NCBI RefSeq assembly: GCF_029626105.1
Contig: NZ_JARUBH010000009.1
Location: 2,480,001-2,544,000, forward strand
Direction of reading: 5' to 3'
Length of the DNA stretch: 64,000 nt
Source: Solwaraspora sp. WMMD792
GTDB taxonomy: Bacteria; Actinomycetota; Actinomycetes; Mycobacteriales; Micromonosporaceae
In this document: in pieces, positions 46,003 through 62,473 of the stretch
Layout: each line of letters starts with the position of its first letter
How positions within the stretch are numbered: the first letter of the stretch is position 1
Translations under genes and position numbers: made by a program
Notes under the pieces: model-generated
The model's input: the letters and a program-made list of their open reading frames with translations, nothing else
Database searches by the model: none
What the model was told of the DNA's origin: nothing

Positions 46003-46114
46003 CCTTCCGACCTGGTCTGAGCTGCGCGGATTCATGATCACGTGACAGCCGCGTCACGGTGCCGACATCAACCGGCCGGAGATTGTGGCCACCGCTTCAC
46101 CGCCAGGAGGTTCC

Positions 46115-47633: not shown

Positions 47634-47790
47634 GGTCCTGGACACAGTCCACAGTCTAGCGATTCGGTCGTGAGCCATGGGGTCGCGTGTGCGGTGGACG
47701 CCGATCCGCCTCGGCACCGGATCGGCTTTCCCTGCCCTGCTCCGCAGGAGTTCCGTTTCCTCCCCGGCCTGAAGGCCGGAGTATCCACGG
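46421..47790 (-). mobile_element. Solitary TnpB element (IS1341-like group of IS200/IS605)
   Basis: The element contains tnpB on the minus strand and no tnpA. Both ends carry a CCTCCCCG-type hairpin. At the left (tnpB 3') end TCCCCGCCC-TAA-GGACGGGGA (46427-46447) is followed by CCCTGGG-TCGC-CCCAGGG (46450-46467). At the right end TTTCCTCCCCGGCCTGAAGG folds as CCGGCC-TGAA-GGCCGG (47764-47779), with a further perfect hairpin CCGATCCG/CGGATCGG at 47701-47725. The left end abuts TTGAC. Exact ends are estimated. Such elements need a TnpA supplied elsewhere in order to move. Confidence 0.75.
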
Positions 47791-47800
47791 AAGGAATCCG

Positions 47801-49507
47801 ATGACAACAGAGGACGCCATGACAGACGCTTCGACAGGCGTACAACTGCCGCTCGACCGGCTCCTCGACCGCCGCGCGTTCCTGGCCCGCACCGCCGCGC
47901 TGGCAGCCACCGCCGCTGTCGGCACCGTGGCGCTGCCCGGCCTGGCCGGGCTCGCCTCGGCCGCGCCGAGCGACACCAGCGCCCCGGCCGTCACATTCAA
48001 CCCGGATCTGGACCGGGGAGCCGCGTACAACAAACCACGCGAGTCGGCTATGTCCGATCCGACCGAATGGACCATCTCGGAAGCCGCCTGGATGATCCGG
48101 CACAACAAGATCGTGCCGGTCGAGCTGGTGCAGGCCTACCTGGACCGGATCACCGCGTACGAGTCGACGTACCAGGCGTTCAACGTGGTGCTCGCGGAGG
48201 CGGCGGTCAAGGCCGCCCGGCAGTGGGCCAACCGGCCGTACCGGGGGCCGCTGCACGGCATCCCGCTGGCCATCAAGGACAACTACTTCACCGAGGGCGT
48301 GCCGACCACCGCGAACTCGTACCTGTTCCAGGACTTCGTCCCACCGTACGACGCCACCTCGGTCGCCAAGCTGGTCGTGCAGGGCGGCATCGTGCTGGGC
48401 AAGACCCAGATGGGTCCGCTGGCCACCACCCGGGCGACCCTGCCCAACGGTCAGGTCACCACCGTCAACGCCTGGACGCCGACGAACCCGTCGACCAACC
48501 CGGGCGGATCGTCGACCGGCACCGCCACCGCCGTCGCCGGCCGGCTGGCCAGCTCGGGGATCGGCACTCAGACCGGCGGCTCGATCACCTCGCCGTCCAA
48601 CGCCCAGAACCTCACCGGCATAAAACCGACGATGGGCCGGGTGTCGCTGGCCGGGATCGTCCCGCTCACCTACACCCGCGACCATCCCGGCCCGCTCGCC
48701 CGCGACGCCAAGGACGCGGCGATCATGCTGATGGCGATGGCCGGGCCGGACCCGGCCGACCCGCGCAGCCAGGGCCTGCCGCCGGTGCCGAACCTGATCA
48801 ACGCGGCGACGCCCCGCTACGACGGCGACAGCCTGCGGATGCGCTGGAAGACCCGGATCGGGGTGCTGCCCGGCTATGCCGACGGCGGCTCGGAGACGGC
48901 GGCGGCCCGCCGGGCGTTCCTCGCCGAGATGGCCGCCATACCGGAGTGCGAGCTGGTCGAGGTGCCGTTCCCGGACGAGTGGAGCCTGCTCACCGGCAGC
49001 GCGTTCAACAACGTACGGCTGCCGGAGCGCAGCGAGCCGTTCATGCCGTACCTGCGCAGTGACCTGCGTGGCTTCGGGGTGTCGGTGACCAGTTGGCTGC
49101 AGGGCGCGTTGCTGGGCGCCAACGGGTGGGTCACCGGCCAGCGCGCCAAGCTGCTGCTGCTGGACCGGATTCTGGACCAGATCTTCAGTAGCTGCGATGT
49201 GGTGGTGCAGACCAGCCCGGTGCCGTTCGACATCGTCGGGCTGCCGGAGATCGCGTTCCCGATCGGCTTCTCCGGCGGCGGGGTACCGATCGGCACCATC
49301 CTCGGCGGGCAACCGTACGCCGAGGACCGTCTGCTGTCGGTGGCCGCCGCGTACCAGGCGGTCACCGACTGGCACTGGCGGCGGCCGGCCGACCCACCGG
49401 CGGTCGACCCGTCGCCGACCGCGTCCACCGCCGCCGCCCGGTCCGCGGCGGCGACGCCGTCGCGGGGTCGGTTGACCGCCGAGGAGGTCGCCGAGCTCAC
49501 CCAGTGA
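47801..49507 (+). CDS. Tat-exported amidase-signature hydrolase
   Basis: The ATG at 47801 has GGAAGG 8 bases upstream. The 568-residue protein begins with a twin-arginine signal (LDRRAFLARTAALAATAAVG) that suggests export of a folded enzyme. The body is an amidase-signature domain with the Ser-cisSer-Lys triad: Lys in GIPLAIKDNYFTEGVPTTAN, then GGSSTGTATAVAG and the nucleophile region GTQTGGSITSPSNAQNLTGI. It hydrolyses an unknown amide outside the cytoplasm. Its ribosome site lies just outside the right hairpin of the TnpB element, so its promoter may now be provided by, or separated by, that element. Confidence 0.9.
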   Translation: MTTEDAMTDASTGVQLPLDRLLDRRAFLARTAALAATAAVGTVALPGLAGLASAAPSDTSAPAVTFNPDLDRGAAYNKPRESAMSDPTEWTISEAAWMIRHNKIVPVELVQAYLDRITAYESTYQAFNVVLAEAAVKAARQWANRPYRGPLHGIPLAIKDNYFTEGVPTTANSYLFQDFVPPYDATSVAKLVVQGGIVLGKTQMGPLATTRATLPNGQVTTVNAWTPTNPSTNPGGSSTGTATAVAGRLASSGIGTQTGGSITSPSNAQNLTGIKPTMGRVSLAGIVPLTYTRDHPGPLARDAKDAAIMLMAMAGPDPADPRSQGLPPVPNLINAATPRYDGDSLRMRWKTRIGVLPGYADGGSETAAARRAFLAEMAAIPECELVEVPFPDEWSLLTGSAFNNVRLPERSEPFMPYLRSDLRGFGVSVTSWLQGALLGANGWVTGQRAKLLLLDRILDQIFSSCDVVVQTSPVPFDIVGLPEIAFPIGFSGGGVPIGTILGGQPYAEDRLLSVAAAYQAVTDWHWRRPADPPAVDPSPTASTAAARSAAATPSRGRLTAEEVAELTQ

Positions 49508-49528
49508 CCGGACGCGCTTCGGCGCGCT

Positions 49529-49561
49529 GCGGGCCGTCCACCCGGTGGGTGGGCGGCCCGC
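49529..49561 (+). terminator. Hairpin terminator after the amidase gene
   Basis: GCGGGCCGTCCACCC (49529-49543) pairs with GGGTGGGCGGCCCGC (49547-49561) around a 3-base loop, with one wobble pair. It starts 21 bp after the amidase stop codon. Confidence 0.75.
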
Positions 49562-49633
49562 GCTCCGTTGCCGTCGGAAGCGGTGCCGCGACGATCCGCT
49601 GCGGGTCGACCTTCCGGACACCCGGACGACCAA

Positions 49634-49653
49634 TTAAGGTTAGGCAAACCTGA
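49634..49653. promoter_or_regulatory. IdeR/DmdR-type iron box
   Basis: TTAAGGTTAGGCAAACCTGA matches the actinobacterial iron-box consensus TTAGGTTAGGCTAACCTAA at 16 of 19 positions. It is the only such site I see, and it lies 87 bp upstream of the siderophore-interacting protein gene, as expected for iron-repressed control. Confidence 0.8.
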
Positions 49654-49739
49654 CTTGACCTCCCGGGAGTCCCGTGACCACGCAGCCGCACCGGCCTCCG
49701 CCGCTCGGCCGGGCGCGCCCCCGTGCGACAAGGAGAACC

Positions 49740-50534
49740 ATGAGCTTCAAGGATGCCAAGAAGCACACCACGCTGTGTGTGGTGAACGTCGTCGGCACCG
49801 AACGGATCAGCCCGAACTTCATCCGGGTCACCCTCGGCGGCGACCAGTTGCAGCGCCTGCCCGACCACGGATTCGACCACTGGTTCCGGCTCTTCCTGCC
49901 GCAGGAACACGGCGAGACCACCTTCGACCTGCCCAACCGGGCCGACACCATCGGCTACCTGAAGTACCTGCGGATCCCGTCGGCGACCCGCCCACACCTG
50001 CGCAACTACACAGTCCGCGCGTTCCGGCCACAGGACCGCGAACTCGACATCGATTTCGTCGTGCACGGCGACGAGGGGGTCGCCAGCCGCTGGGTGCAAC
50101 GCACCAAGGCCGGTGACACCGTCGCTCTGCTCGACCAGGGCTGCGGATACGAGTTCGCCCCCGACACCACGTTCCACCTGCTGGCCGGCGACGAGACCGC
50201 GCTGCCGGCGATCGTCGGCATCCTGCGGGACCTGCCGCGCGACGCCACCGGCCTGGCCCTGGTCGAGATCCCCGACCCCGCCGACGCCCAGCCGGTCGAC
50301 GCACCCGCCGGGTTCGAGGTCCGCTGGCTGCCCCGGCCGGCCGGGACCCGGCCGGGCAGCCTCGCGCTCGCCGCGGCGCAGGCCTGGACGACCGACAGTC
50401 CGACCACGGTGTCCGCCTACTTCGCCGGCGAGCAGGCCCTGCCTGCCGGGGCCCGCCGCCACCTGGTCGAAATCGGGGTCCCGAAACGCAGGATCGCGTT
50501 CACCGGCTACTGGCGACTCGGCAAGACGCACTGA
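49740..50534 (+). CDS. Siderophore-interacting protein (FAD/NAD(P)H ferric reductase type)
   Basis: The ATG at 49740 has AAGGAG 5 bases upstream. The 264-residue cytosolic protein has the ViuB/SIP layout: an FAD-binding barrel with LRNYTVRAFRPQDRELDIDF and VVHGDEGVASRWVQRTKAGD, then a nucleotide domain with HLLAGDETALPAIVGILRDL and a C-terminal GYWRLGKTH. These enzymes reduce ferric siderophores to release iron. The iron box upstream indicates derepression under iron starvation. No siderophore biosynthesis or uptake genes adjoin it in the window. Confidence 0.93.
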   Translation: MSFKDAKKHTTLCVVNVVGTERISPNFIRVTLGGDQLQRLPDHGFDHWFRLFLPQEHGETTFDLPNRADTIGYLKYLRIPSATRPHLRNYTVRAFRPQDRELDIDFVVHGDEGVASRWVQRTKAGDTVALLDQGCGYEFAPDTTFHLLAGDETALPAIVGILRDLPRDATGLALVEIPDPADAQPVDAPAGFEVRWLPRPAGTRPGSLALAAAQAWTTDSPTTVSAYFAGEQALPAGARRHLVEIGVPKRRIAFTGYWRLGKTH

Positions 50535-50695
50535 ACCGGCCAGTCTGCCGCCGCCACCCGCTGCACGGAGCGGGCGAATTGCAACCGCAGTGGATCGTGT
50601 GACGGCGGAACCGGCGGTAGATTACCTCAAGCGTCGCCGCCCCCGGCGGCGCCGATCACGGTTCGTCCGTGCACATTCTACGAAGGGATGATGTG

Positions 50696-52390
50696 GTGAG
50701 CAGACGCTTCACCGCCGGTGCCGTCGCTACCGCGACGACCCTGGCCCTGCTGGGCGCCGTACCGGCCGGACCGGCCGCCGCCGCCCCCGGCGCCTCGGGC
50801 GACGTCACCGAGTACACGGTGGTCGCCGAGGCCGGCACCGGCACCGCCGAGGCGACAGCGGCCATCGAGGCCGCCGGCGGCACCGTCACCGGCAGCACCG
50901 TCGACGTGGGCATGTACCAGGTCGTCACTGACGACGCCGAGTTCGCCGCCAAGGTCGCCGCCGCTCCCGCGCTGCTCGGCGCCGCGGAGAAGCGGGCCAT
51001 CGGGTACGCGCCACGCCAGCGCTTCGACACGGTGGAGCAGGAGCACCGCATCGCCGGCGCGACATCCGCCGGGGCGGCCGGGCGACGCGGCACCCGGATG
51101 GACCCGCTCGACGACAAGCTCTGGGGCCTGCCGATGATGCGGGCGGACAAGTCACGCCGGGTCGAGCCGGGCGACCGGCGGGTCACCGTCGGCATCCTGG
51201 ACACCGGGGTCGACGGTCAGCACCCGGACATCAGGCCCAACTTCAGCTACTCGCTGTCGCGCAACTTCGCCCCCGACATCCCCGACATCGACGGGACGTG
51301 CGAGGTGGAGTCCTGCCTGGACCCGGTCGACCGCGACGACAGCGGCCACGGCACCCACGTCGCCGGCACCATCGGCGCCGCCGCCAACCGCTTCGGCCTG
51401 TCCGGCGTCGCCCCCAACGTCACCCTGGTGGCGCTCAAGGGTGGCCAGGACTCCGGCTACTTCTTCCTCGACTCGGTGGTCAACGCCCTGGTCTACGCCG
51501 GTGACGCCGGCATCGACGTGGTCAACATGTCGTTCTACATCGACCCGTGGCTGTACAACTGCCTGGACAACCCGGCCGACTCCGCCGAGGAGCAGGCGTC
51601 GCAGCGGGCCACCATCGAGGCGGTCAACCGGGCGCTGCGGTACGCGCACAAGCGGGGCGTCACGCTGGTCGGCTCGCTCGGCAACAACCACGAGGACCTG
51701 GGCGACCCCCGCCCGGACTCGTCCAGCCCCAACTACGGCGGCACCCCCCGGCTGCGCACCATCGACAACGACACCTGCTGGGACCTGCCGGTCGAAGGCG
51801 CACACGTGATCGGGGTGTCGGCGCTCGGCCCGTCGAAGGCCAAGGCGGACTACTCCAACTACGGCACCGAGGAGATCTCGGTCGCCGCGCCCGGCGGCTG
51901 GTTCCGCGACGGGTACGGCACCCCGACCCACCGGACCTACGACAACACCATCCTGTCGTCGTACCCGCTGCACGTACTGCAGGAGGAGGGCGCGGTCGAC
52001 GCTGACGGCAACATCGTGCCGGACGCCGAGTCGTACGTGTTCAAGGAGTGCACGTCGGCCGGGACCTGCGGCTACTACACGTACCTGCAGGGCACCTCGA
52101 TGGCGTCGCCGCACGTCTCCGGGGTGGCCGCGCTGATCGTCAGCCGGTACGGCAAGCGCGACGGCCGCCGGGGCGGGCTGACCCTGGACCCGGACAAGGT
52201 GGAACGGCACCTGTACCGGACCGCCGCCGACACGGCCTGCCCCGAGCCGCGCCTGGTGTCCTACGCCAACGAGGGCCGGTCCCCCGAATGGGACGCCTAC
52301 TGCGACGGCGGCACCAGCTTCAACGGCTTCTACGGCCACGGCATCGTCGACGCCTTCGCCGCGGTCACCCGACCGCTGCACCACCACTGA
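50696..52390 (+). CDS. Secreted S8 (subtilisin-like) serine protease
   Basis: The GTG at 50696 follows GAAGGGATG. The 564-residue preproprotein has a signal peptide (SRRFTAGAVATATTLALLGA, cleavage near AAA-AP) and a prodomain of about 110 residues. The catalytic domain has Asp in VTVGILDTGVDGQHPDI, His in DDSGHGTHVAGTIGAAANR and Ser in LQGTSMASPHVSGVAALIV. Four Cys in CEVESC and CTSAGTCGYY may form disulfides. The chain ends in HHH. The closest families are secreted actinobacterial subtilisins; its substrate is unknown. A hairpin terminator follows. Confidence 0.93.
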   Translation: MSRRFTAGAVATATTLALLGAVPAGPAAAAPGASGDVTEYTVVAEAGTGTAEATAAIEAAGGTVTGSTVDVGMYQVVTDDAEFAAKVAAAPALLGAAEKRAIGYAPRQRFDTVEQEHRIAGATSAGAAGRRGTRMDPLDDKLWGLPMMRADKSRRVEPGDRRVTVGILDTGVDGQHPDIRPNFSYSLSRNFAPDIPDIDGTCEVESCLDPVDRDDSGHGTHVAGTIGAAANRFGLSGVAPNVTLVALKGGQDSGYFFLDSVVNALVYAGDAGIDVVNMSFYIDPWLYNCLDNPADSAEEQASQRATIEAVNRALRYAHKRGVTLVGSLGNNHEDLGDPRPDSSSPNYGGTPRLRTIDNDTCWDLPVEGAHVIGVSALGPSKAKADYSNYGTEEISVAAPGGWFRDGYGTPTHRTYDNTILSSYPLHVLQEEGAVDADGNIVPDAESYVFKECTSAGTCGYYTYLQGTSMASPHVSGVAALIVSRYGKRDGRRGGLTLDPDKVERHLYRTAADTACPEPRLVSYANEGRSPEWDAYCDGGTSFNGFYGHGIVDAFAAVTRPLHHH

Positions 52391-52406
52391 GCACGTCCGG
52401 TCCGGA

Positions 52407-52442
52407 CGGCCGGGGTTGGCTGATCACCGCCCACCCCGGCCG
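52407..52442 (+). terminator. Hairpin terminator after the subtilisin gene
   Basis: CGGCCGGGGTTGG (52407-52419) pairs with CCCACCCCGGCCG (52430-52442) over a 10-base loop with one mismatch. It lies 17 bp after the stop. The remainder of the gap to 52667 shows no gene. Confidence 0.65.
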
Positions 52443-52667
52443 CCGGCCGCAGCCGGTCCCGCACCGCCGCCGGTCGACGTCGCGTGACATCGCCGAATCC
52501 ATCCGACCCTCCTCGTCATACCAGCAGAATCGTCAGGTTCGCAGGGTACGGACCGCAGGCCGGTCCGGTGACCGGTCAAGGTTGCGCCGTCGTTCGGGTG
52601 GCCACTGCCCGCCCATCGACCGACTGGCGCCGTCCAGCATATTCAGAAGGACCGCCGGACAGCTTGT

Positions 52668-53375
52668 TCAGGAGGACCGCCGGCCGGCGGGTCGCGGGTG
52701 GACCAGGCCGCTTTCGTACGCCGCGATCACCAGCTGTGCCCGGTCCCGGGCGGACAGCTTGGCCAGCAGGTTGCCGATGTGGGTCTTGACGGTCTTCACC
52801 GAAATGGTCAGTACCTGCGCGATGTCGTCATTGGACAAGCCCTCGGCGACCTGGACCAGCACCTGTTTCTCCCGGTCGGTGAGCCCGTCGAGGGTGGGCG
52901 CCCGACGCCCGGCGCGCCGGTCGGCACGGTCCACGTAGTGCGCCACGATCCGGGCCAGGACGCTGGGAGCGAACAACGACTCCCCCGCGTGGATCCGCCG
53001 GACGGCGTCGAGTAGCCGGTCCGGGTGGGTGTCCTTGAGCAGGAATCCGCTCGCGCCGGCACGCAACGCTCCGTACACGTACTCGTCGAGTTCGAACATG
53101 GTGAGCACCACCACCCGCACGTCGCGCAGCGTGCCGTCGCCGGTGATCGCGCGGGTGGCGGCGATGCCGTCCCCGCCGGGCATCCGGATGTCCATCAGGA
53201 CGACATCCGGACGCAGCAGCCGTGCGAGGGTCACCGCGTCCGCGCCGGTGGCGGCCGAACCGACCACCACCAGGTCGTCGACGCTGTCGATCACGATGGC
53301 GAGGCTGTGCCGCAGCAACGGTTGATCGTCGGCGACCAGGACCCGCACGGGTCGGCGCGCCGGTCGCGACGTCAC
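52668..53375 (-). CDS. NarL/FixJ-family response regulator
   Basis: The GTG at 53375 overlaps the kinase stop codon (GTGA) and gives 235 residues; a GTG at 53348 is the minimal alternative. The receiver domain has VRVLVADDQPLLRHSLAIVI (acidic pair), the phosphoacceptor Asp in PDVVLMDIRMPGGDGIAATR, and Lys in GASGFLLKDTHPDRLLDAVR. The LuxR-type DNA-binding domain is LTDREKQVLVQVAEGLSNDD followed by IAQVLTISVKTVKTHIGNLL. It forms a two-component pair with the kinase and is divergent from an ABC transporter operon and the P450-RiPP genes. It may control them; inference. Confidence 0.92.
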   Translation of the reverse strand: MTSRPARRPVRVLVADDQPLLRHSLAIVIDSVDDLVVVGSAATGADAVTLARLLRPDVVLMDIRMPGGDGIAATRAITGDGTLRDVRVVVLTMFELDEYVYGALRAGASGFLLKDTHPDRLLDAVRRIHAGESLFAPSVLARIVAHYVDRADRRAGRRAPTLDGLTDREKQVLVQVAEGLSNDDIAQVLTISVKTVKTHIGNLLAKLSARDRAQLVIAAYESGLVHPRPAGRRSS

Positions 53376-54235
53376 CCCGCCGCCCCAGGCTCGGGTAGCC
53401 GCGCCACCAGGTGGAACCCGGGACCGACCGGACCGGCGTGCAGCGACCCGCCGAGGGCGTCCACCCGCTCGCGTAGCCCGGTCAGCCCGTGGCCGGCGCC
53501 GGGCTGCGGGCACCATCCGGCAACGGGTCCGCCGTCACGGACGCTGGCGACCACCGCGTCCCCGTCGCGGTGCACCCTGACCCGGACGTCGGTCGGCCCG
53601 GCGTGCCGGGCGGTGTTGTGGAGTCCCTCCCGGACCACCGCACACACCGCCAGCTGCACCCCGGACGAGACCGTGCCCAGCTCCGCCAGGTCGAGCGCGG
53701 CGGGCAGCCCGCTGTCCCGGGCCGCGCCGACGATCCCCGGCAGGTCGCCCAGCGACGCCGCCGGCAGCACCGGTGCCGGCCCGTCACCCGAGGTACGCAG
53801 GACGGTGAGCAGCCGTCGCAGTTCGGTGGTCGTCTCGCGGGCCACCCGCTCGATGTCGGCGAGTGCGGCGGCACGTTCCGCGTCACCGCCCACGCCGGCC
53901 ACCCGGTTGGCGGCCGCCGCCCGCACCGTGACCAGGCCCAGCCCGTGTGAGACGAGGTCGTGCAGGTCACGGGCGATCCGCAAGCGTTCGGTCTGACCGG
54001 CCCGCTCGGCGGCCCAGGCGGTCAGCTGCTCCTCGTAGCGGCGGCGCTGCCGGCGGCTGCGGACCAAGGCCCAGGCCAGCACGACGAACGCCGAGACGAT
54101 CGCGAGGGCCGGAACGACCAGCGCCGCCGGCCCTTCGGCACCGGTCACGAGGGCCAGCGTGACAAGGACGGCGGCCAGCGCGGCGGCGACCAGCCACACC
54201 CGGGAACGCCAGGTCGGACGCCCACTGCTGTCCAC
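53372..54235 (-). CDS. Sensor histidine kinase, NarX/DesK-like
   Basis: The GTG at 54235 is chosen because the frame then opens with the first membrane segment and a good promoter lies just upstream. The 287-residue protein has two membrane helices (SRVWLVAAALAAVLVTLALV and LVVPALAIVSAFVVLAWALV) with almost no external loop. The HisKA_3 dimerisation domain follows (RLRIARDLHDLVSHGLGLVT, with the phosphorylated His in DLHD) and then an HATPase domain (VVREGLHNTARHAG, GHGLTGLRERVDALGG). Kinases with no extracellular domain often sense membrane perturbation, including by antimicrobial peptides. Confidence 0.9.
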   Translation of the reverse strand: MDSSGRPTWRSRVWLVAAALAAVLVTLALVTGAEGPAALVVPALAIVSAFVVLAWALVRSRRQRRRYEEQLTAWAAERAGQTERLRIARDLHDLVSHGLGLVTVRAAAANRVAGVGGDAERAAALADIERVARETTTELRRLLTVLRTSGDGPAPVLPAASLGDLPGIVGAARDSGLPAALDLAELGTVSSGVQLAVCAVVREGLHNTARHAGPTDVRVRVHRDGDAVVASVRDGGPVAGWCPQPGAGHGLTGLRERVDALGGSLHAGPVGPGFHLVARLPEPGAAG

Positions 54236-54242
54236 CGGCCCG

Positions 54243-54271
54243 AGTCTAGGTCCGCCGGGTCGGGCCGACAA
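54243..54271 (-). promoter_or_regulatory. Promoter of the kinase/regulator operon
   Basis: On the minus strand TTGTCG (-35) and TAGACT (-10) are separated by exactly 17 bases. The -10 ends 7 bases before the GTG start, so the transcript would be leaderless or nearly so. Confidence 0.6.
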
Positions 54272-54359
54272 TCGGACCGTGGTCGCACGACCACGGTCGC
54301 AGGACCGGTCCGCAGGTCCCGTCCCCGGCCCGACGACACGGCGACGGATCGGCGGTGGG

Positions 54360-55085
54360 ATGGCAGGCATGCTGCTCATCGACGACGTCGTCAAACGGCG
54401 AGGTGCCCGACAGGTGCTGCGGGGCGTCAGCTTCGAGGCGGTGCCCGGTCGGGTGACCGGATTCGTCGGCCCCAACGGGGCCGGGAAGTCTTCCGTCCTG
54501 CGGATCCTGCTCGGTCTGGACCGCGCCGACGCCGGCCGGGCCCTGGTCGCCGGACGGCCGTACCGAGAGCTGCGCCGGCCGCTGCACACGGTCGGTGCGA
54601 TGCTCGACGGCTCCGGCGCGCACCGGTCCCGTACCGCCCGCAGCCATCTGACCTGGTTGGCGCGCAGCAACGGGATCCCCCGACGCCGGGTCGACGAGGT
54701 CCTCGACCAGGTCGGGCTGGCCGAGGCCGCCCGGCAGCGGGCGGGCCGGTTCTCCCTCGGGATGGGTCGCCGACTCGGGCTCGCCGCCGCGCTGCTCGGT
54801 GAGCCGGCGGCGCTGGTGCTGGACGAACCGGTCAACGGACTCGACCCGGACGGCGTCCGGTGGGTCCGGCGGCTGTTGCGGGCCCACGCCGACGCCGGCG
54901 GGACGGTGTTGTTGTCCAGTCACCTGATCGGCGAACTCGCCGGCATCGCCGACGACCTGGTGGTCGTCGCCGACGGCCGGACCGTCGCGGCCGGCCCGCT
55001 GGCCGAGGTCGTCGCCGGACACGGCACTGCCGAGGCGGCGTTCTTCGCCCTCACCGGCAGCGACGCGCGGCCCGGCGCCCGGTGA
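54360..55085 (+). CDS. ABC transporter ATP-binding protein
   Basis: The 241-residue protein has Walker A GFVGPNGAGKSSVLRILLGL, a signature region AGRFSLGMGRRLGLAAALLG (F-S-L-G-M in place of LSGGQ, as in BcrA/DrrA-type exporters), Walker B AALVLDEPVNGLDPDGVRWV, and the switch His in TVLLSSHLIGEL. It is the energising subunit of a drug- or peptide-type exporter with two permeases. The stop codon overlaps the first permease start. The operon is divergent from the two-component genes and ends 185 bp upstream of the first micro-precursor gene. Confidence 0.93.
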   Translation: MAGMLLIDDVVKRRGARQVLRGVSFEAVPGRVTGFVGPNGAGKSSVLRILLGLDRADAGRALVAGRPYRELRRPLHTVGAMLDGSGAHRSRTARSHLTWLARSNGIPRRRVDEVLDQVGLAEAARQRAGRFSLGMGRRLGLAAALLGEPAALVLDEPVNGLDPDGVRWVRRLLRAHADAGGTVLLSSHLIGELAGIADDLVVVADGRTVAAGPLAEVVAGHGTAEAAFFALTGSDARPGAR

Positions 55086-55897
55086 CGGCGTTCGACACGG
55101 TCGCCGCCGAATGGCGCAAGGCCGTCACCCTGCCGGCGACCGCCGTCGCGATGGCCGTCGCGGTCATCGGATCGGTCGCGATCACCCTGGTCAACTCGGT
55201 CACGGTACGCGGCGCATTGGCGTCCGGCCGTCCCGAACTGGTCGCGTACACGTCCGCGCCGGAGGCGTTCTTCGCCGCTGTGCCGCTCGGCACCGTCGGC
55301 GCGGTCGTCATCGGCGTCGTCGTGGTCGGCAGCGAGTACACCGCCAACAGCAGCGACAGCGGCGGTGGCCGGCAGATCACCACGACGCTGACCGCCGCGC
55401 CCCGGCGGCTGCCGGTGCTGGCGGCGAAGGCTTTGGTCGCGGTGGGGCTGGTCGCCGTGACGGCCGGGGTGGCGGTGCCCGCGTCGCTGGCCCTGGCCCA
55501 TGCTGTCGTCGGCGGGGCGGGCGCCAACGCCGGTGCCGCCACCGTCGCCAGCGCCACCGCGACGGCGGACACCGTGGTCCGGGCGGTCGGCGCGGCCGTC
55601 TACTGGGCGCTGACCGCGCTCACCGCACTGGCGGTCACCGTCGTGACCCGCAACGGGATCGTGCCGATGACCGTGCTCATCGTCAACAACTCGCTGGTGT
55701 CGCTGTCACTGCTGCTGTCGTACGTCACCCCGCTGGCCCGCTACCTGCCGGATCTCGCCGGCATCCGGCTGTTCGCCCGCGAACACGTCGCTTTCGGCGA
55801 CGCGCTCGCCCCACTGGCCGGCGGGCTGGTGATGGCCGGCTGGACGTTCGGGCTGCTCGCCGTCGCCGCCGGGGTACTCCATCGGCGCGACGTGTGA
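55082..55897 (+). CDS. ABC transporter permease 1
   Basis: The GTG overlaps the previous stop codon (GTGA). The 271-residue protein has six hydrophobic segments (LPATAVAMAVAVIGSVAITL, GTVGAVVIGVVVVGSEYTAN, and so on) and the layout of ABC-2 permeases, ending in AAGVLHRRDV. The S-E-Y segment after the second helix is common in bacitracin/lantibiotic immunity permeases. It pairs with the following gene, whose product ends in the same RRDV, so the transporter is probably a heterodimer. The substrate is unknown. Confidence 0.85.
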   Translation: MTAFDTVAAEWRKAVTLPATAVAMAVAVIGSVAITLVNSVTVRGALASGRPELVAYTSAPEAFFAAVPLGTVGAVVIGVVVVGSEYTANSSDSGGGRQITTTLTAAPRRLPVLAAKALVAVGLVAVTAGVAVPASLALAHAVVGGAGANAGAATVASATATADTVVRAVGAAVYWALTALTALAVTVVTRNGIVPMTVLIVNNSLVSLSLLLSYVTPLARYLPDLAGIRLFAREHVAFGDALAPLAGGLVMAGWTFGLLAVAAGVLHRRDV

Positions 55898-56640
55898 CCG
55901 GCGGTCTCGGCGACGTCGTCGCGGCCGAGCTGGTCAAGCTGCGGACACTGCCGGGTGTCGTCGCCACCCTCGGCGGTACGGTCGGCGCGGCGGTCGCCGT
56001 CGTCGCCGTGACGGTCGCCACGGCCCGGTCGACCGGCGAAGGCGGGCCGGCGGGTGTCGACGCCGTGGCCCTGGCCTGCCGGGCGGTTCCCTTCCTGCAG
56101 GCGGGCCCGATCATCATCGGGGTCCTCGGCGGCGCGGCCGAGTACGCCGGCGGCCTGCTGCGGACCGCCCTGGTCGCCTGCCCGGACCGGCGGACGGTGC
56201 TCGCCGGTCGGGCGGCGGCGTACCTGGTCGTCGCTGCGCTCACCGCCGCAGCGGCGCTGGGTGCCGGCCTGACGACCGGTTGGATCGCCGGTGCCACCGT
56301 GCGGCCGGTCGGCTGGGCCGCTGTGCAGGTGTCGGTCGGCGCGGTCGGCTATCTGGTCCTGGTCGGGCTGCTCGGCCACGCCGTCGCGGTCGTGCTGCGC
56401 GGAGTCCTACCAGGGTTGGCCGTGACGCTCGGGCTGGTGTTCGTGGTCTGCCCGGTGCTGGCCGGGTTCACCGGCGTCGCCGGTGTCCTGCCGGAGCGGG
56501 CCGGTCGGCTGCTGGCCGGAGCGTCGGACGCTGCTGCGGTCGCCGTGCCGGATCTGGTGACCGGGCTGATCGTCCTGCTCGGCTGGATCGGGGTCATCGG
56601 CACGGTGGCGGCGACGGTCTTCCTTCGACGCGACGTCTGA
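55894..56640 (+). CDS. ABC transporter permease 2
   Basis: This 248-residue protein starts at a GTG overlapping the stop of permease 1. It has six membrane segments and an early soluble turn LGDVVAAELVKLRTLPGVVA, the usual entry of ABC-2 permeases. It has the sequence LGGAAEYAGGLLRTALVACP where permease 1 has SEYTAN, and ends VFLRRDV like its neighbour. The two are distant paralogues. With the ATPase they form a complete exporter that could serve as self-protection or export for the adjacent RiPP. Confidence 0.85.
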   Translation: MTGGLGDVVAAELVKLRTLPGVVATLGGTVGAAVAVVAVTVATARSTGEGGPAGVDAVALACRAVPFLQAGPIIIGVLGGAAEYAGGLLRTALVACPDRRTVLAGRAAAYLVVAALTAAAALGAGLTTGWIAGATVRPVGWAAVQVSVGAVGYLVLVGLLGHAVAVVLRGVLPGLAVTLGLVFVVCPVLAGFTGVAGVLPERAGRLLAGASDAAAVAVPDLVTGLIVLLGWIGVIGTVAATVFLRRDV

Positions 56641-56825
56641 GGCCGCACCCAACCTGACCGCACCCAACCTGACCACGCCTGGCCTCGCCGAGGTCGGTTC
56701 CGGCACCCCGCCGGCACCATCCGAGCAGACGTAACAAGCTGTTTCGCTGCGATGGCGTTGTGTGCGGCATCCTCAGGTGACACGATCAAGAAAAGCATTC
56801 ACCTAATCCGATCGAGGAGGTGGAC

Positions 56826-56915
56826 ATGCGGACGTTGCGGCACCTGGCGGCCCGGCTGGTGGGCAGGAGGCGGATCAGCGGCCGGTACGAGTGGTGGTAC
56901 TACCACCAGGCGTAG
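56826..56915 (+). CDS. P450-RiPP precursor peptide 1
   Basis: This 29-codon gene has a perfect AGGAGG 5 bases before ATG. The peptide is a basic, helical leader MRTLRHLAARLVGRRRISGR followed by an aromatic tail YEWWYYHQA. It shares 21 of 29 residues, including all of positions 1-11, with a second micro-gene on the other side of the P450 gene. Short precursors with a basic leader and a Trp/Tyr/His-rich end next to a single P450 are the mark of biarylitide-, cittilin- and atropopeptide-type RiPPs. In those, the P450 makes aryl-aryl or aryl-nitrogen crosslinks. The Y26-H27 pair and W24 are shared by both tails and are the likeliest crosslink sites. Core boundaries are not known. Confidence 0.85.
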   Translation: MRTLRHLAARLVGRRRISGRYEWWYYHQA

Positions 56916-56941
56916 ACAGCCGTCGGACACCGGGAACGAAG

Positions 56942-56967
56942 GCAGGATCCCGGTAGCGGGGTCCTGC
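56942..56967 (+). promoter_or_regulatory. Stem-loop between precursor 1 and the P450 gene
   Basis: GCAGGA-T-CCC pairs with GGG-G-TCCTGC around the loop GGTAGC, a 10-bp stem with one T-G wobble. No T-run follows. It lies 26 bp after the precursor stop and 19 bp before the P450 start. It could act as a partial terminator or stabiliser that keeps precursor mRNA in excess over enzyme mRNA, as in many RiPP operons. Confidence 0.55.
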
Positions 56968-56986
56968 ACCTGGTTAGGAGCCGCAG

Positions 56987-58306
56987 ATGGCACCGCTGAA
57001 GCAGGGCGACCGGCCACCGGGGCCGCGCGGGCACTGGCTCACCGGCAACACCCCGGCCTACGAGGCCGACCGGATCGGCTTCATCGAGCGCAATCACCGC
57101 GAGTACGGCGACGTGTTCACCTTCGACGACCGCACCGTGTTCGTGATCGACCCGGAGCTGGCCCACGACGTGCTCACCCGGCCGGGCAACGCCTTTCTGC
57201 CCGAGCTGGCCCCGTTCGACGCCCGCCCCGACCTCGACCGGGCCGCCGAGCGGGCCGAGGCCTGGATGCCGGCCCGTCGGGCCGCGTGGGCCGGTCTCGA
57301 CCGACAGGCCAGCGCCGCCTTCGACGGGCGTACCGTCGAGATCCTCGACGCGGACCTCGACGCCGCCGCCGGCCGGGAAACCGACGTGCTGGCGATGATG
57401 CGACAGTACGCCGCCGCGACGATCGCCGATTACTGCTTCGGAGCCGACTCCGCAGGGGTCCCGGAGCTGCTCGCCGAGGGCGTCGCCGCCACCGCGCCGT
57501 TCGAGACCGCGAAGTACGGGTTCGCGGCCTGGCTGCCGATTCGGCGCAACCGTCGGTTCTTCCGCGCACACCGCACGTTCACCGACGCCCTGCTGTCGGT
57601 GGTGCGACGCCGTCGGGCCGGGACCGCCCCGACCGGTACGGCCTCGGCCGGTACATCCACCCTGGACCTACTGGACGTGCTGCTGGCGGCCCGGCCGGCA
57701 CTGCCGGACCGGGCGGTCGTGTCGACGCTGCGCCCGGTCCTGCTCGGCGGACACGGCGTGCCGGCTGCCGCGCTGACCTCGCTGACCTGGGAACTCGCCA
57801 GCCGGCCGGAGCTTGTCGCCGCGCTGCGGGCGGAGGCGGGCGGGCCGGCCGGTTCCGGCGACCCGCCGCCGGCGGCCCGGCTACCGCTGGCCGAGGCCGT
57901 GGTCAACGAGGCGCTGCGGCTGTATCCGCCGGCGTGGCTGATGACCCGGACCGCCCGTACGGCCACCGGGTTGGGTCCGTGGACGCTGCGGCCCGGCGAC
58001 GAGGTGCTGATCGGCGCGTACCTGATCCATCGGGATCCACGGTGGTGGCAGCGGCCCGACGAGTTCGACCCCGGCCGGTGGGCCGCCGGCCGGCCGGCAC
58101 CGGGAGCGGCGTTCCTGCCCTTCGGCGCCGGGCCCCGGGTCTGTATCGGTACGGCGTTGACCATGCGTCAGCTCACCCTCACCGTCTCCCGGCTGGCCCA
58201 GCGCGGCTCGGTCGAGTCGTCGAACGCCGCGTCGACCCGGCTGCGGTTCGCCGGCCGGCTCGCACCGGCCGGCCTGCGGGCCCGGTTTGTCGACGGAAAG
58301 TTCTGA
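56987..58306 (+). CDS. Cytochrome P450, predicted RiPP crosslinking enzyme
   Basis: The ATG has AGGAG 6 bases upstream. The 439-residue soluble P450 has E308-x-x-R311 in VVNEALRLYPPAW and the heme loop AFLPFGAGPRVCIGTALTMR with the ligand Cys386. In the I helix, where most P450s have (A/G)-G-x-(D/E)-T, it has G254-G-H-G-V-P, so the acid-alcohol pair for oxygen protonation is missing. P450s that couple aromatic residues instead of inserting oxygen often vary here. The gene sits between two near-identical 29-residue precursor genes, so those peptides are its probable substrates. Ferredoxin and reductase are not encoded nearby. Confidence 0.92.
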   Translation: MAPLKQGDRPPGPRGHWLTGNTPAYEADRIGFIERNHREYGDVFTFDDRTVFVIDPELAHDVLTRPGNAFLPELAPFDARPDLDRAAERAEAWMPARRAAWAGLDRQASAAFDGRTVEILDADLDAAAGRETDVLAMMRQYAAATIADYCFGADSAGVPELLAEGVAATAPFETAKYGFAAWLPIRRNRRFFRAHRTFTDALLSVVRRRRAGTAPTGTASAGTSTLDLLDVLLAARPALPDRAVVSTLRPVLLGGHGVPAAALTSLTWELASRPELVAALRAEAGGPAGSGDPPPAARLPLAEAVVNEALRLYPPAWLMTRTARTATGLGPWTLRPGDEVLIGAYLIHRDPRWWQRPDEFDPGRWAAGRPAPGAAFLPFGAGPRVCIGTALTMRQLTLTVSRLAQRGSVESSNAASTRLRFAGRLAPAGLRARFVDGKF

Positions 58307-58384
58307 TCACGTCTCGTTGCGTACCCGCAACCGGTGTGCGATGGTCATGAGAATTACTCACCTCGATCGAACGAGGAGGTAGCC

Positions 58385-58474
58385 ATGCGGACACTGCGTC
58401 ACCTGGCCGCCCGGCTGGCCGGCAGGAAGCGGGTCAGCGGCCGGTACATCTACTGGCCCTACCACTACGAGTAG
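58385..58474 (+). CDS. P450-RiPP precursor peptide 2
   Basis: This second 29-codon gene also has AGGAGG, 5 bases before ATG, and follows the P450 gene by 78 bp. The leader MRTLRHLAARLAGRKRVSGR differs from that of precursor 1 only at V/A12, R/K15 and I/V17. The tail is YIYWPYHYE. Y21, an aromatic at 23, W24, Y26 and H27 are kept, while E22, Y25, Q28 and A29 of the first change to I, P, Y and E. The tail starts with Y-I-Y-W, reminiscent of the Y-I-Y-Y core of cittilin. The 5' leader regions of both genes share TCACCT...CGATCGA...GAGGAGGT, so promoter and gene were duplicated together. Confidence 0.85.
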   Translation: MRTLRHLAARLAGRKRVSGRYIYWPYHYE

Positions 58475-58509
58475 GCCGACCCGGCGGACGACGTCGACGA
58501 CTGCAGGAC

Positions 58510-58553
58510 ATGGTCCCCGGGGCCCCGCCGATCGGCGGGGCCCCGGGGACCAT
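58510..58553. terminator. Perfect 44-bp palindrome, terminator of the RiPP operon
   Basis: Two 22-base arms, beginning ATGGTCCCCGGGG and ending CCCCGGGGACCAT, are perfect reverse complements with no spacer. It lies between precursor 2 and the convergent esterase gene, 36 bp after the precursor stop, and would stop transcription from both sides. Confidence 0.85.
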
Positions 58554-58613
58554 CCTTGTCTGACTGCCCGGACCGGTGTTCCAGCCTGTCCGGACCGGTG
58601 GTTCAGCCGCTGG

Positions 58614-60005
58614 TCAGCTGATGGTGCAGGCGGCACCGTTGAGGGTGAACGAGCTCGGTGCGCCGGCGTTGCCGGTGTGGGTGGCCTGGAAGCCGATGTC
58701 CACCGAGCCGTTGACCGGGATACTGGCGTTGTAGGACATGTTGCGGGCCGTCACCTGCCCCGAATTCGGTGAGTAGGTGGCGTTCCAGCCCCCGGTGATG
58801 GTCTGCCCGCCGGGCAGGGTGAAGACCAGCGACCAGCCGTTGACGGCGCTGGAACCGGTGTTGGTGATCCGGAAGTTCCCGGTCAGCCCGTTGTTCCAGG
58901 CGTTGATGGTGGCCGCGACCCGGCAGGCACCGGTGGGCGGCGGCGCAGTCGTCGGCGGCGGCACGGTGGTCGGTGGCGGAGCCGTCGTCGGCGGCGGTGC
59001 GGTGGTGGGCGGTGGAGCCGTCGTCGGCGGCGGTGCGGTGGTGGGTGGCGGAGCCGTGGTCGGCGGTGGGGTCGAGGTCAACCCGAAGAACTCGATGGCA
59101 ACGGCGGCCATGCCGCCGCTCGGCAGGCTGTGGCCGGCGCCCTGGATGCTGTACGCCTCGACCTGGACGGTGCCGGAGCTGTCAGCGAACTGGCGGCGGT
59201 TCCAGCCGGACCGCGGGGTGTCGGTACGGGTCGGTGTCTGGCTGAGCCCGAACACGTTGGTCCACTGGTCGACCGCCTCCTGCAGCAACGAGTACGGCAC
59301 CAGGGTGTCGGCGGTGCCGTGCCACAGCTGCGCCCGCGGCCGCGGGCCGGAGTAACCCGGGTACGCCTGACGGACGGCGTCACCCCACTGCTGCGGGGTC
59401 CGGTTCATGTTGCCACCGGTGCACTGGCTGCTCCACGGCGGATAGTCGGCCGCGTTGGCGAAACAGTTGTACGGCACTCCCATGAAGGCCGACCCGGCCT
59501 TGAACACGTCCGGGTAGACGGCCAGCATGTGGTTGGTCATCATGCCGCCGGACGAACTGCCGGTGGCGTACACCCGGTTGGGGTCGCCGCCGTACTGCTG
59601 CTGGGCGTACTGGACCATCGACATGATCGACACCGGGTCGCTGCCGCCGCCCCGCCGCCTCGCCGCCTCGGACCAGACGTCGAAGCAGTTGCCGAAGCCG
59701 GCCTGCTGGGTGGCGGTCGGGTAGATCACGATGAAGCCGTACCGGTCGGACAGTGAGGCGAACTCGCTGCCGGAGTAGAAGCCGGGCCCGGATCCGCCGC
59801 AGCCGTGCATCGCCACGACGATCGCCGGGTTCGCCGGACGGCTGTCCGGCACGTAGACGTGCATCTGCATTCCGCCCGGGTTGTTACCGAAGTTGGTCAC
59901 CTGGACCAACGACGCCGCGTACGCCGGCCGGAGCGCCGGGACGACCAGGCCGGCGGCGACCAGCGACATCGCCATGCCGAGCAGCAGTTTTCGTCTGACT
60001 CTCAT
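58614..60005 (-). CDS. Secreted PHB-depolymerase-family esterase with CBM2
   Basis: The ATG at 60005 has GGAAGGAG upstream and opens a signal peptide (RVRRKLLLGMAMSLVAAGLV, cleavage near AYA-AS). The 463-residue protein has an alpha/beta-hydrolase domain with PAIVVAMHGCGGSGPGFYSG (oxyanion region), the nucleophile Ser in RVYATGSSSGGMMTNHML, and a His in QGAGHSLPSGGM. This type includes poly(3-hydroxybutyrate) depolymerases and acetylxylan/feruloyl esterases. A P-P-P-T-T-A linker and a family 2 carbohydrate-binding module (about residues 365-463, with CRVAATINAWNNGLTGNFRI) follow, pointing to plant polysaccharide rather than polyester as substrate. Confidence 0.92.
   Translation of the reverse strand: MRVRRKLLLGMAMSLVAAGLVVPALRPAYAASLVQVTNFGNNPGGMQMHVYVPDSRPANPAIVVAMHGCGGSGPGFYSGSEFASLSDRYGFIVIYPTATQQAGFGNCFDVWSEAARRRGGGSDPVSIMSMVQYAQQQYGGDPNRVYATGSSSGGMMTNHMLAVYPDVFKAGSAFMGVPYNCFANAADYPPWSSQCTGGNMNRTPQQWGDAVRQAYPGYSGPRPRAQLWHGTADTLVPYSLLQEAVDQWTNVFGLSQTPTRTDTPRSGWNRRQFADSSGTVQVEAYSIQGAGHSLPSGGMAAVAIEFFGLTSTPPPTTAPPPTTAPPPTTAPPPTTAPPPTTAPPPTTVPPPTTAPPPTGACRVAATINAWNNGLTGNFRITNTGSSAVNGWSLVFTLPGGQTITGGWNATYSPNSGQVTARNMSYNASIPVNGSVDIGFQATHTGNAGAPSSFTLNGAACTIS
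58932..59073 (-). repeat. Tandem 18-bp repeats encoding a PPPTTA linker
   Basis: About eight copies of an 18-bp unit encode P-P-P-T-T-A/V between the esterase and the CBM2. Alternate units use different synonymous codons, so the array is a protein linker repeat and not a selfish DNA repeat. Confidence 0.9.
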
Positions 60006-60254: not shown

Positions 60255-61355
60255 GTGACGAGCCTGTTCAGCATCGAGGAGATCTATCCGGAGGAGGCGG
60301 GCCGGCCGGTGCGGCTGCCCCGACGGCAGACCGGCAACTCGCCGCAGGGCCTCGCGGTGACCCTGCTGGCCGACTACACCCTGCGGACCCGCGCCTGGCT
60401 GCCGTCGGCCGCCATCGTCGCGCTGCTCGCCGAATCCGGCGTCACCCCCGCCGGCGCCCGGACCGCCATCAGCCGGCTCGCCCGCCGAGGGGTACTCGAA
60501 GGCAGTCGACGCGGTCGGCACAGCTCGTACCGGCTCGCCCACGCCGCCGCCGCCAGCCTGGCGATCGGCGGACACTGGATTCTCACCGCCACCGCGACGG
60601 CCCGGCCGTGGGACGGCCAGTGGACCCTGGTCGCGTTCACCTTGCCGCAGGAGCACAGCGCGCAACGGCGGGCGCTGCGGGGCCAGCTCCGGTGGCTGGG
60701 GTTCGCGCCGCTGTACGACGGGTTGTGGATCTCCCCCCGCACGCTGCCCGGGCCCGCGATGCGCCATCTCGCCCAGCTCACTCCCGGCACCATCTCGGTC
60801 TTCCGTGGCCGGCAGGCCGACCTGGGCGCCACCACCGGTCGCGACCCGCTCGACGCCTGGGACGTCGAGGCCATCGCCGGACAGTACGGCGACTTCGTCG
60901 ACCGGTGGCAGGCGCTGCTGCCCCAGGTGCACTCCGGTCAGGTGAGCGGACCGGCGGCGGTACGGGCCCGCACCGAAGTGATGGACACCTTCCGGCGGTT
61001 CCCCACCCTCGATCCGCAGTTGCCGGTCGAGCTGCTGCCGGCCAACTGGCTACGGGATCCCGCCCGGGAGGTCTTCGCCGCCGTCTACGACGGTCTCGCC
61101 GACGTCGCCGAACGACACGTCCGGGCGGTCGTCACCCGCTTCTCCGGTGACGCGGCCCCCGACCACGTACGGGCCCACACCACCGGCGATCTGTTGGCGG
61201 GAGTCCAGCCAGCCGGTCCCGGCCCCGGCTACAGCCCCGGCCCGGGCTTCGACCCCGGCCCGGGCTTCGGAACGGGCCTGGGCCTCGGCCTCGGAGCTGG
61301 AGCCGGGCACCGGACGGCGCAAGCCGGGTCGGCGGCCCGTACCGTCGGACAGTGA
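60255..61355 (+). CDS. PaaX-family transcriptional regulator
   Basis: The GTG at 60255 has GGAG 5 bases upstream; a GTG two codons earlier is possible. The 366-residue protein has the PaaX N-terminal winged helix (SAAIVALLAESGVTPAGART, then AISRLARRGVLEGSRRGRHS), the central domain (WDGQWTLVAFTLPQEHSAQR, then RALRGQLRWLGFAPLYDGLW), and the C-terminal helical part (LPVELLPANWLRDPAREVFA). Classical PaaX represses phenylacetate catabolism, but no such genes are near. An extra 50-residue tail of PGPGF and GLGLG repeats is unusual. Its stop overlaps the start of the caspase gene, so the regulator is probably tied to that system. Confidence 0.88.
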   Translation: MTSLFSIEEIYPEEAGRPVRLPRRQTGNSPQGLAVTLLADYTLRTRAWLPSAAIVALLAESGVTPAGARTAISRLARRGVLEGSRRGRHSSYRLAHAAAASLAIGGHWILTATATARPWDGQWTLVAFTLPQEHSAQRRALRGQLRWLGFAPLYDGLWISPRTLPGPAMRHLAQLTPGTISVFRGRQADLGATTGRDPLDAWDVEAIAGQYGDFVDRWQALLPQVHSGQVSGPAAVRARTEVMDTFRRFPTLDPQLPVELLPANWLRDPAREVFAAVYDGLADVAERHVRAVVTRFSGDAAPDHVRAHTTGDLLAGVQPAGPGPGYSPGPGFDPGPGFGTGLGLGLGAGAGHRTAQAGSAARTVGQ

Positions 61356-62473
61356 CCACGACCGCACCGCAGCACCCCGACGCCCGGGTGGTCGCCGTCG
61401 GCGTCGGCGCCTACCAGGCCGGCGACGGCTGGACCCTGACCGGGCCGGTCCACGACGCCGTCCGGATCGCACGGTTCTTCGTCGCCCACGGCGTACCCGC
61501 CGGGAACGTGGACCTGCTCACCGACCCGGCGCCGCCCGAGGACGATCTGCCGGCCGGGGTGCGACGGCGACCCGCCGACCGGACCACCGTCCGTCAACTG
61601 CTGCTGCGCGAGCTGCCCGACAGCTCCGCCCGGGAACTGTACGTCTACTGGGGCGGTCACGGCTTCGTCGACCCCGGTCGGCGGCGCCGGCTCTACTACG
61701 CCGACGCGACCGACGCCGACGCCGTCGACCTCGGCCTGGACTCGCTGCTGGCGACGTACGCCTCGGACCTCGTCACGGCGCTGCACCGGCAGCTGTGGCT
61801 GGTCGACGTCTGCCAGACCCACGGCCCGGCCCGGCCACGCCGGATCGACGGACACGAGACCTTCCCAGTCGGTGAACCGGTCGCTGGGCGCAGCCAGGAC
61901 GTGCTGTTCGCCGCCGCCGTCGGCCAGCCTGCCGCCAACCTGGACCGGCAGCGGACCGGGCTGTTCAGCCGGGAACTGCTGCGGCTACTGGACGCCGACG
62001 GCATCGCGGCGCTCGACGACGCACAGTGGCTCGCGGACCGGCTCCGTACCCGGTTCACCGCGTTGCACGCCGAAGGTCTGACCGGGCAGACCCCGACCTA
62101 CCTGTGGTACCGCAACGCCTACGGCGACGAAGGTCTGCTGCTGGCGGCGGAGCCGGCCGGCTCGCGAGAGACCGCCGGCAGGCCGGCGCGGCCGTCGACG
62201 GCGGCGATCGCCGCAGTGGTGGCCGCGCTGTTGGAGATCCCGGAGTTTCTTCGGCCGAACGACCGCGAGGAGATCCTGTCCCTGCTGCCCCCGTCGGTCT
62301 ACGCCTCGATCCGGCGCAACCCGGCTGCGCGGATCGACGCAGTGAACATCGTCCGCGGCTGTCAGCGGCACGCCACCGGACTGTCCGAACTCGTCGCCGC
62401 CGTCCGCTTCTTCGCCGGCGACGATCCGGCCGTCGACCACCTCGCCGAGACGGTCCGGAGGCTCGCCGCGTAG
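61352..62473 (+). CDS. Caspase-like (C14) protease with C-terminal effector-associated domain
   Basis: The GTG overlaps the PaaX stop codon. Residues 1 to about 240 of the 373-residue protein are a caspase-hemoglobinase fold domain: VVAVGVGAYQAGDGWTLTGP, His103 in YVYWGGHGFVDPG, and Cys154 in LWLVDVCQTHGP. The catalytic dyad is therefore present. Residues about 275-373 match the pattern of an effector-associated domain of the EAD2 type (EIPEFLRPNDREEILSLLPP, IVRGCQRHATGLSELVAAVR). Such domains recruit caspase, TIR or trypsin-like effectors in actinobacterial conflict systems by homotypic contacts. A FxSxx-type peptide gene and a HExxH enzyme gene follow on the same strand. Confidence 0.88.
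   Translation: MTTTAPQHPDARVVAVGVGAYQAGDGWTLTGPVHDAVRIARFFVAHGVPAGNVDLLTDPAPPEDDLPAGVRRRPADRTTVRQLLLRELPDSSARELYVYWGGHGFVDPGRRRRLYYADATDADAVDLGLDSLLATYASDLVTALHRQLWLVDVCQTHGPARPRRIDGHETFPVGEPVAGRSQDVLFAAAVGQPAANLDRQRTGLFSRELLRLLDADGIAALDDAQWLADRLRTRFTALHAEGLTGQTPTYLWYRNAYGDEGLLLAAEPAGSRETAGRPARPSTAAIAAVVAALLEIPEFLRPNDREEILSLLPPSVYASIRRNPAARIDAVNIVRGCQRHATGLSELVAAVRFFAGDDPAVDHLAETVRRLAA

Follow-up and report, generated by a model that had tools for sequence, protein, structure and literature searches.

One cytochrome P450 between two diverging micro-genes: a probable two-precursor P450-modified RiPP locus in Solwaraspora sp. WMMD792

Introduction

P450 enzymes that crosslink short ribosomal peptides are in demand as a source of rigid macrocycles, and the kind of RiPP that they produce is known, with related single-peptide versions in many actinobacteria. 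What is to be made of a locus in which one such P450 is accompanied by two different peptides, a pairing that is unusual? The case considered here lies in a stretch of 64,000 nucleotides (hereafter the window; bases 2,480,001-2,544,000 of contig C9, in a genome of 7.4 Mb), and a preliminary description had read it as a dual-precursor cluster whose P450 ties Trp24 to His27 of its peptides. We put the probability at roughly 0.85 that this is indeed a P450-modified two-precursor RiPP locus, a minimal operon of the 'cyptide' kind. The minimal P450-modified locus and the paralogous precursors of that description are retained below, but not its Trp24-His27 bond.

Layout of the locus

The operon runs from precursor 1 through a P450 of 439 residues to precursor 2 and a hairpin, the three genes sharing one strand (Table 1). 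Both micro-genes, the P450 between them and the AGGAGG preceding each micro-gene lie where the preliminary description had placed them, and recomputing the comparison of the two peptides returned the same values, 21/29 identical residues with residues 1-11 invariant. The region 58475-58575 folds at -67.2 kcal/mol (z -5.4), an energy equalled by none of 200 shuffles. A consensus scan for T-run terminators listed none, and the hairpin within this region, itself devoid of a T run, is a probable terminator.

Table 1. Features of the two-precursor locus, in window coordinates
Feature	Position	Strand	Evidence
Ribosome-binding site of precursor 1, AGGAGG	56815..56820	+	sequence
Precursor 1, 29 aa, MRTLRHLAARLVGRRRISGRYEWWYYHQA	56826..56915	+	sequence; orthologues in L009, L010; profile match E 4.1e-15
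Parts of precursor 1: leader MRTLRHLAARLVGRRRISGR, tail YEWWYYHQA (apparently the diverged paralogue)	within 56826..56915	+	
Ribosome-binding site of P450, AGGAG	56976..56980	+	sequence
Cytochrome P450, 439 aa	56987..58306	+	Pfam PF00067 E 2.6e-46; I-helix alignment; model mean pLDDT 86.3
Ribosome-binding site of precursor 2, AGGAGG	58374..58379	+	sequence
Precursor 2, 29 aa, MRTLRHLAARLAGRKRVSGRYIYWPYHYE	58385..58474	+	sequence; L009, L010, L016, L024, L025; profile match E 8.3e-17
Parts of precursor 2: leader MRTLRHLAARLAGRKRVSGR, tail YIYWPYHYE (form common to single-precursor congeners)	within 58385..58474	+	
Strong G+C hairpin separating precursor 2 from the convergent gene	58510..58553		folding vs shuffles

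The locus occurs a second time, in identical form, in the same assembly, on contig C1 (25,674 bases, 25.7 kb), which repeats window 28918-43087 and 48399-59904 at 100% identity without 43088-48398. Because C1 begins and ends inside long ORFs, it is probably a redundant or rearranged assembly contig, and its copy was not counted as a second cluster. The stretch missing from it includes a gene on the minus strand (46392-47807) whose product, a TnpB-like transposon protein of 471 aa, matches Pfam OrfB_IS605 (E 3.8e-31) and Cas12f1-like TNB. Elsewhere in the window, at 61352-62473, a 373-aa protein carries a C-terminal Effector-associated domain 2 (Pfam E 4.2e-19), and a caspase-like N-terminal part is suggested by visual inspection only.

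Conservation of the micro-genes

Both micro-genes look like genuine precursor genes. The whole window holds 920 micro-ORFs that run from start to stop over 15-50 aa, nested starts being counted apart. Only six of them have at least five W, Y or H among the nine residues at their end, and each of the six is a nested start of one of the two precursors. When 300 genomes of the same family were queried with the P450 at a threshold of E 1e-60, 24 had a match. A profile built from 32 precursors matched 20 of the 300, and every one of its 25 matches adjoins the P450, so that in the genomes searched the precursors occur only with this P450 type. As the profile was made from peptides beside these very P450s, the independent part of this co-occurrence test is the absence of the peptides elsewhere. 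The 20 precursor-positive genomes are exactly those of the 24 whose P450 is at least 46% identical; the remaining four (37-42%) offer weak candidate peptides only. Of these 20, the window's genome, G093 and G114 have two precursors each and the other 17 a single one.

A scan of named genomes supplied a second collection of 54 loci, seven of which appear to repeat contigs of the first set. With a profile of 22 precursors, of which the 54 loci had contributed eight and contigs repeated among these loci another three, a precursor at E 2.5e-10 or better was found beside the P450 in 27 of the 54. Sixteen of these positives lie outside the profile, many being close to its members, and they include five that the first filter had overlooked (L032, L033, L034, L037 and L039). 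The hosts of the 27 include Streptomyces, Catellatospora, Allorhizocola, Micromonospora, Nonomuraea, Bailinhaonella, Saccharopolyspora and Amycolatopsis. In the 27 loci without a strong match, weak candidates (E 0.03-0.05) turned up for L056 and L057 and nothing convincing for the others. Weak-scoring peptides ending in RMGGRYIWIP (L028/L056), RMGGRYPWIP (L057) and RMAGRYPWRH (L029) adjoin P450s of 39-42% identity.

Within the window's own genus, six of seven genomes possess the P450 with its precursor or precursors, and two congeners (L009 and L010) keep both peptides beside the orthologous P450. In congener G079 the subtilase and esterase genes that neighbour the cluster are present, their alignment ends lying 271 bases apart, and neither the P450 nor either peptide was found there. 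The preliminary description was to be given up if the micro-genes proved not to be conserved beside orthologous P450s in relatives; they are conserved, which favours the idea.

Origin of the two precursors

How did one P450 come to have two peptides? The paralogues differ over residues 1-21 by five synonymous and three non-synonymous changes (pS 0.26, pN 0.07), and over the tail (22-29) by 0.2 synonymous and 9.8 non-synonymous ones (pN 0.47). Precursor 2, compared with the single precursor of congener G105, has a leader with pS 0.59 and pN 0.05 and a tail unchanged at the protein level. Two species have EWWYYHQA as the tail of precursor 1, and the third has DWWYYHQA. IYWPYHY-type tails are found in the single-precursor congeners L016, L024 and L025, as well as in L058, and in all four the single precursor gene stands upstream of the P450. 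Because the single-precursor congeners bear tails of this type, the EWWYYHQA peptide, present in three of the 20 genomes, looks like the diverged duplicate.

Copies 1 and 2 also have stretches in common upstream of their start codons. A quick P450 tree with SH-aLRT support only groups the three two-precursor species in a single clade (100), which joins L016, L024 and L025 at 89 with the inner branching unresolved. We infer that the duplication took place in the ancestor of the three two-precursor species and that the upstream copy then altered its tail, which thereafter would have stayed nearly fixed.

The P450 and its neighbours

The heme loop (FLPFGAGPRVCIG) and the ExxR motif (EALR) of the P450 are intact, and its I-helix is atypical: it reads GGHGVPAAA, with G257-V258-P259 where canonical P450s have Glu/Asp-Thr. 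The acid-Thr pair of the I-helix serves oxygen activation in P450s. Once repeated sequences had been removed from the alignment, this G-x-P was seen in all 37 P450s with a strong precursor match, and ET in 14 others, none of which has a precursor match beside it; a search of 22 ET-type control loci for precursors gave a best match no better than E 1.8. G-x-P also occurs in seven P450s without a strong precursor match, five of which adjoin weak candidates (E 0.027-1.2); no candidate was found beside the other two (L059 and L063). Because the usual Glu-Thr pair is replaced by Gly-x-Pro, the pattern fits enzymes specialised for coupling rather than hydroxylation. Two further aligned P450s, both from Xanthomonas, have EPM at this place and stand beside the peptide MKRLFDSLSRWVQSLGGRKLGYIYTY. 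This 26-aa peptide is encoded behind AGGAG and upstream of the EPM-type P450 gene (L067, 3749-3829; L070, 3735-3815), and the pair is possibly another P450-RiPP type.

To which known enzyme is this P450 closest? Its best NCBIfam match is ApyO, at 133 bits against an equivalog cut-off of 525 bits or more. Over an alignment of 34 P450s that includes some of the ET type, the best E values were 8.8e-86 and 6.8e-80 for terpene P450 models and 8.9e-53 for ApyO. The ApyO model found nothing above its cut-off in six genomes and nothing at E 1e-120 in 150, where the controls gave no signal either. General P450s are among the matches listed for a Foldseek search with the P450 model (best 50 of 1672) and for a profile search of solved structures (best 60 of 267), and likewise for a single-sequence search of solved structures.

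When ORFs of at least 130 aa were clustered over 37 loci, the P450's own overlapping frames being excluded from the ranking, no gene besides the P450 was common to more than seven loci. The widest set spans seven, in several of which its ORFs overlap an ABC-ATPase match; sets of five follow, and one of these reads like a second P450 (L033, L034, L045, L046 and L101). So few shared neighbours mean that the core cluster is minimal. The adjoining ABC transporter and two-component genes (about 52.7-56.6 kb; PF00005, PF07730, PF00072) were considered as cluster parts and rejected, because L099 and L100, which carry the same P450 and both precursors, have no match to them at E 1e-10. Neither does the syntenic subtilase (PF00082) qualify as a dedicated leader protease, being found also in the cluster-free G079; it could nonetheless act as a general one. 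Aminopyruvatide clusters have an MNIO gene, in contrast to the two-precursor locus, and the sole PF05114 (MNIO) match in this genome (C9:3093771-3094553, E 4.1e-77) lies more than 500 kb away, where it possibly belongs to another RiPP locus.

Residues likely to be joined

Which residues would such an enzyme connect? A hand-picked selection of 32 aligned precursors (31 distinct) has Y21 throughout and an aromatic residue at position 23 throughout (28 Tyr, 4 Trp); position 24 is Trp in 31 and Tyr in one, and position 26 is Y or F in 27. Position 27 is His in 14 and elsewhere N, G, F, A, W, Q or nothing. R16 is present in 25, the other seven having Q. Both precursors of the window have Arg five residues ahead of Tyr-x-Tyr/Trp (R16, Y21, W23/Y23). 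This is the spacing of the ApyO substrate as reported in the accessible part of its source (PMC13192836), where ApyO joins both Tyr of RMGEGYLYD and requires Arg five residues before the first.

A ring between Y21 and the aromatic residue at position 23 is our first-ranked bond, with a chance that we judge slightly better than even; W24 is as conserved as position 23, and conservation therefore leaves the ring partner unfixed. It is accordingly conceivable, though with clearly lesser likelihood, that the ring is Tyr21-Trp24 (i, i+3), or that two bonds (e.g. 21-23 and 24-26) yield a bicyclic product. The presence of W24 in 31 of the 32 precursors and of Y or F at position 26 in 27 speaks for these arrangements, as does the report, in the text available from PMC11450843, that a single P450 makes several bonds in atropopeptides. 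They are harder to reconcile with the most distant candidates, which keep the Tyr-x-Trp part alone (YVW in L055; YPW or YIW in L028, L029 and L057), L055 being the only one of the four with a strong precursor match. That the same locus should instead join W24 to H27, as the preliminary description proposed, appears improbable. Both tails do contain the two residues, and a Trp(i)-His(i+3) C-N bond is ascribed to the P450 SroB in the accessible part of PMC11002830; yet the bond is poorly supported, because H27 occurs in only 14 of the 32 precursors and Y21, position 23 and W24 are near-invariant, and it would leave the invariant Y21 unused. The Tyr21 ring to position 23 is thus likelier than Tyr21-Trp24 or the bicycle, and these in turn are likelier than W24-H27.

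Proposed route and its alternatives

If the locus is what it seems, the P450 would bind the basic leader and the R-x-S-G-R-Y segment of a precursor, take up the C-terminal tail in its active site and couple aromatic side chains oxidatively, with the loss of 2 H per bond. With 2 H lost, the tails would have calculated [M+H]+ values of 1343.548 (YEWWYYHQA) and 1331.573 (YIYWPYHYE). In precursor 1 the bond would link Tyr21 to Trp23 (Tyr-Glu-Trp) and in precursor 2 Tyr21 to Tyr23 (Tyr-Ile-Tyr), Tyr21 to Trp24 being the alternative in both. Release and transport would fall to a host protease and an exporter not dedicated to the locus. A single enzyme would then yield two different small cyclic peptides, EWWYYHQA representing the newer, diverged copy. 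That one P450 installs two ring types, Tyr-Glu-Trp in a precursor that has acquired a new function and Tyr-Ile-Tyr (or Tyr21-Trp24) in the one of ancestral form, is a tentative proposal, to which we give rather less than an even chance.

Could the second peptide be superfluous? Seventeen of the 20 family genomes manage with a single peptide, and the leaders of precursor 1 have accumulated non-synonymous changes between species, as would be expected if only one precursor were a substrate and the other a decaying duplicate or a regulator. This is unlikely, though, given that the reading frame, ribosome-binding site and tail of precursor 1 are kept in all three two-precursor species and that pN of its leader (0.05-0.10) lies below pS (0.11-0.20) in all three species pairs, few as the changes are and with non-synonymous changes as numerous as synonymous ones or more so in two of the pairs. 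Far less credible still is an ordinary monooxygenase with chance micro-ORFs alongside, for which one may cite the commonness of P450-like genes in this genome (six other matches apart from the two copies of the cluster gene). Chance is very unlikely because the peptides are conserved beside the P450, with profile matches always adjoining it, and the same reading is at odds with the confinement of W/Y/H-rich ends to the two precursors, the joint absence of P450 and peptides from G079, the I-helix G-x-P and the combination of a conserved leader with a diverged tail in the paralogues. A P450-modified locus with two substrates is thus the reading that we prefer.

Relation to known P450-crosslinked peptides

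With a P450 gene adjoining a short precursor gene of aromatic-rich end, the locus has the feature by which cyptides are recognised. The comparisons that follow rely on the accessible portions of the cited papers. Pseudosporamide is N-acetyl-Tyr-Pro-Trp (PMC7277628), and an enzyme is reported for a Tyr(i)-Trp(i+2) C-C bond of its kind (PMC11002830); taken together, PMC11002830, PMC13250620 and PMC12299652 would make this the enzyme of micitide, a combination that is our own. The Tyr(i)-Trp(i+2) spacing of pseudosporamide and micitide 982 is that of Y21-E22-W23 in precursor 1, which, compared by description only, differs from pseudosporamide in having Glu/Asp as x and a second Trp and further residues after it. 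The YPW of the weak candidate precursors beside related P450s (L029 and L057) recalls pseudosporamide as well. Another cyptide P450 joins Tyr(i) to N1 of Trp(i+2) (PMC11002830) and can be named lapparbin's by way of PMC13250620; lapparbin, roseovertin and rubrin, all cyptides with single-P450 aromatic crosslinks, are likened to the two-precursor locus by description only. Aminopyruvatide (ApyA/ApyO) shares with both precursors the Arg five residues before Tyr-x-Tyr/Trp (PMC13192836). ApyO acts on a C-terminal 10-mer (PMC13192836), and ApyA is 66 aa long, as against the 29 aa of the peptides here.

Atropopeptides (tryptorubin, scabrirubin) resemble this locus in their two-gene minimal cluster, short leader, aromatic tail and single P450. 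Their defining features are KSLK, a core Trp2 and the class P450 (PMC11450843), and membership was rejected: at residues 17-20 the precursors have ISGR and VSGR in place of KSLK and, unlike atropopeptides, a conserved Tyr21 ahead of the other aromatics. As to the core Trp2, precursor 1 has W23 and precursor 2 has Y23, the start of the core not being fixed. The sole KSLK-type reference P450 aligned, that of L095, could be matched to the cluster P450s locally only (33-45% over 85-129 residues, best 15) and is not alignable at the I-helix. L095 (genome G752) itself holds an atropopeptide-type precursor, MKLLFAIRNKAAARKSLKASAWYLWY, whose end reads AWYLWY (compare AWYIWY) and which ends at 4481, just before a divergent P450 frame within 4283-5644. 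The KSLK-type pattern was absent from 296 genomes of the phylum and from 246 of one genus taken for Streptomyces, and a looser version matched one of 392 genomes of the genus taken for Streptomyces (L094/L095); a search of a plasmid collection gave no match. Biarylitides likewise have a P450 adjoining a micro-gene, but their five-residue precursor (PMC13417212) sets them apart from the 29-aa peptides here, and membership was rejected on that ground; their micro-gene pattern was absent from 286 genomes. The cittilin core is YIYY. It is found in neither of the two tails, YEWWYYHQA and YIYWPYHYE.

Significance

How new is this arrangement? Two precursors per cluster are not unheard of, because two such atropopeptide clusters, or a small clade of them, are reported in the text available from PMC11450843. 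One P450 with two precursors that differ at the likely crosslinking residue (Trp23 vs Tyr23) was not found in the accessible open-licence literature, and six tail strings are absent from the open-licence full text searched; the family may already be catalogued in larger surveys (Nam 2023; He 2023; Hu 2023). Together, the G-x-P P450s and R-Y-x-Y-W-type precursors of Micromonosporaceae, Streptomyces, Nonomuraea and Saccharopolyspora offer several dozen comparison points. Six congeneric species amount to a natural experiment on a single enzyme lineage, with one substrate in L016, L024 and L025 and two diverged ones in the window's species, L009 and L010, and the two-peptide system could show how far one P450 tolerates a changed crosslinking residue. 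If the proposal of two ring types is true, duplication of a precursor alone would have led to new P450 crosslink chemistry with no further enzyme gene required, and the two products may work together as a pair.
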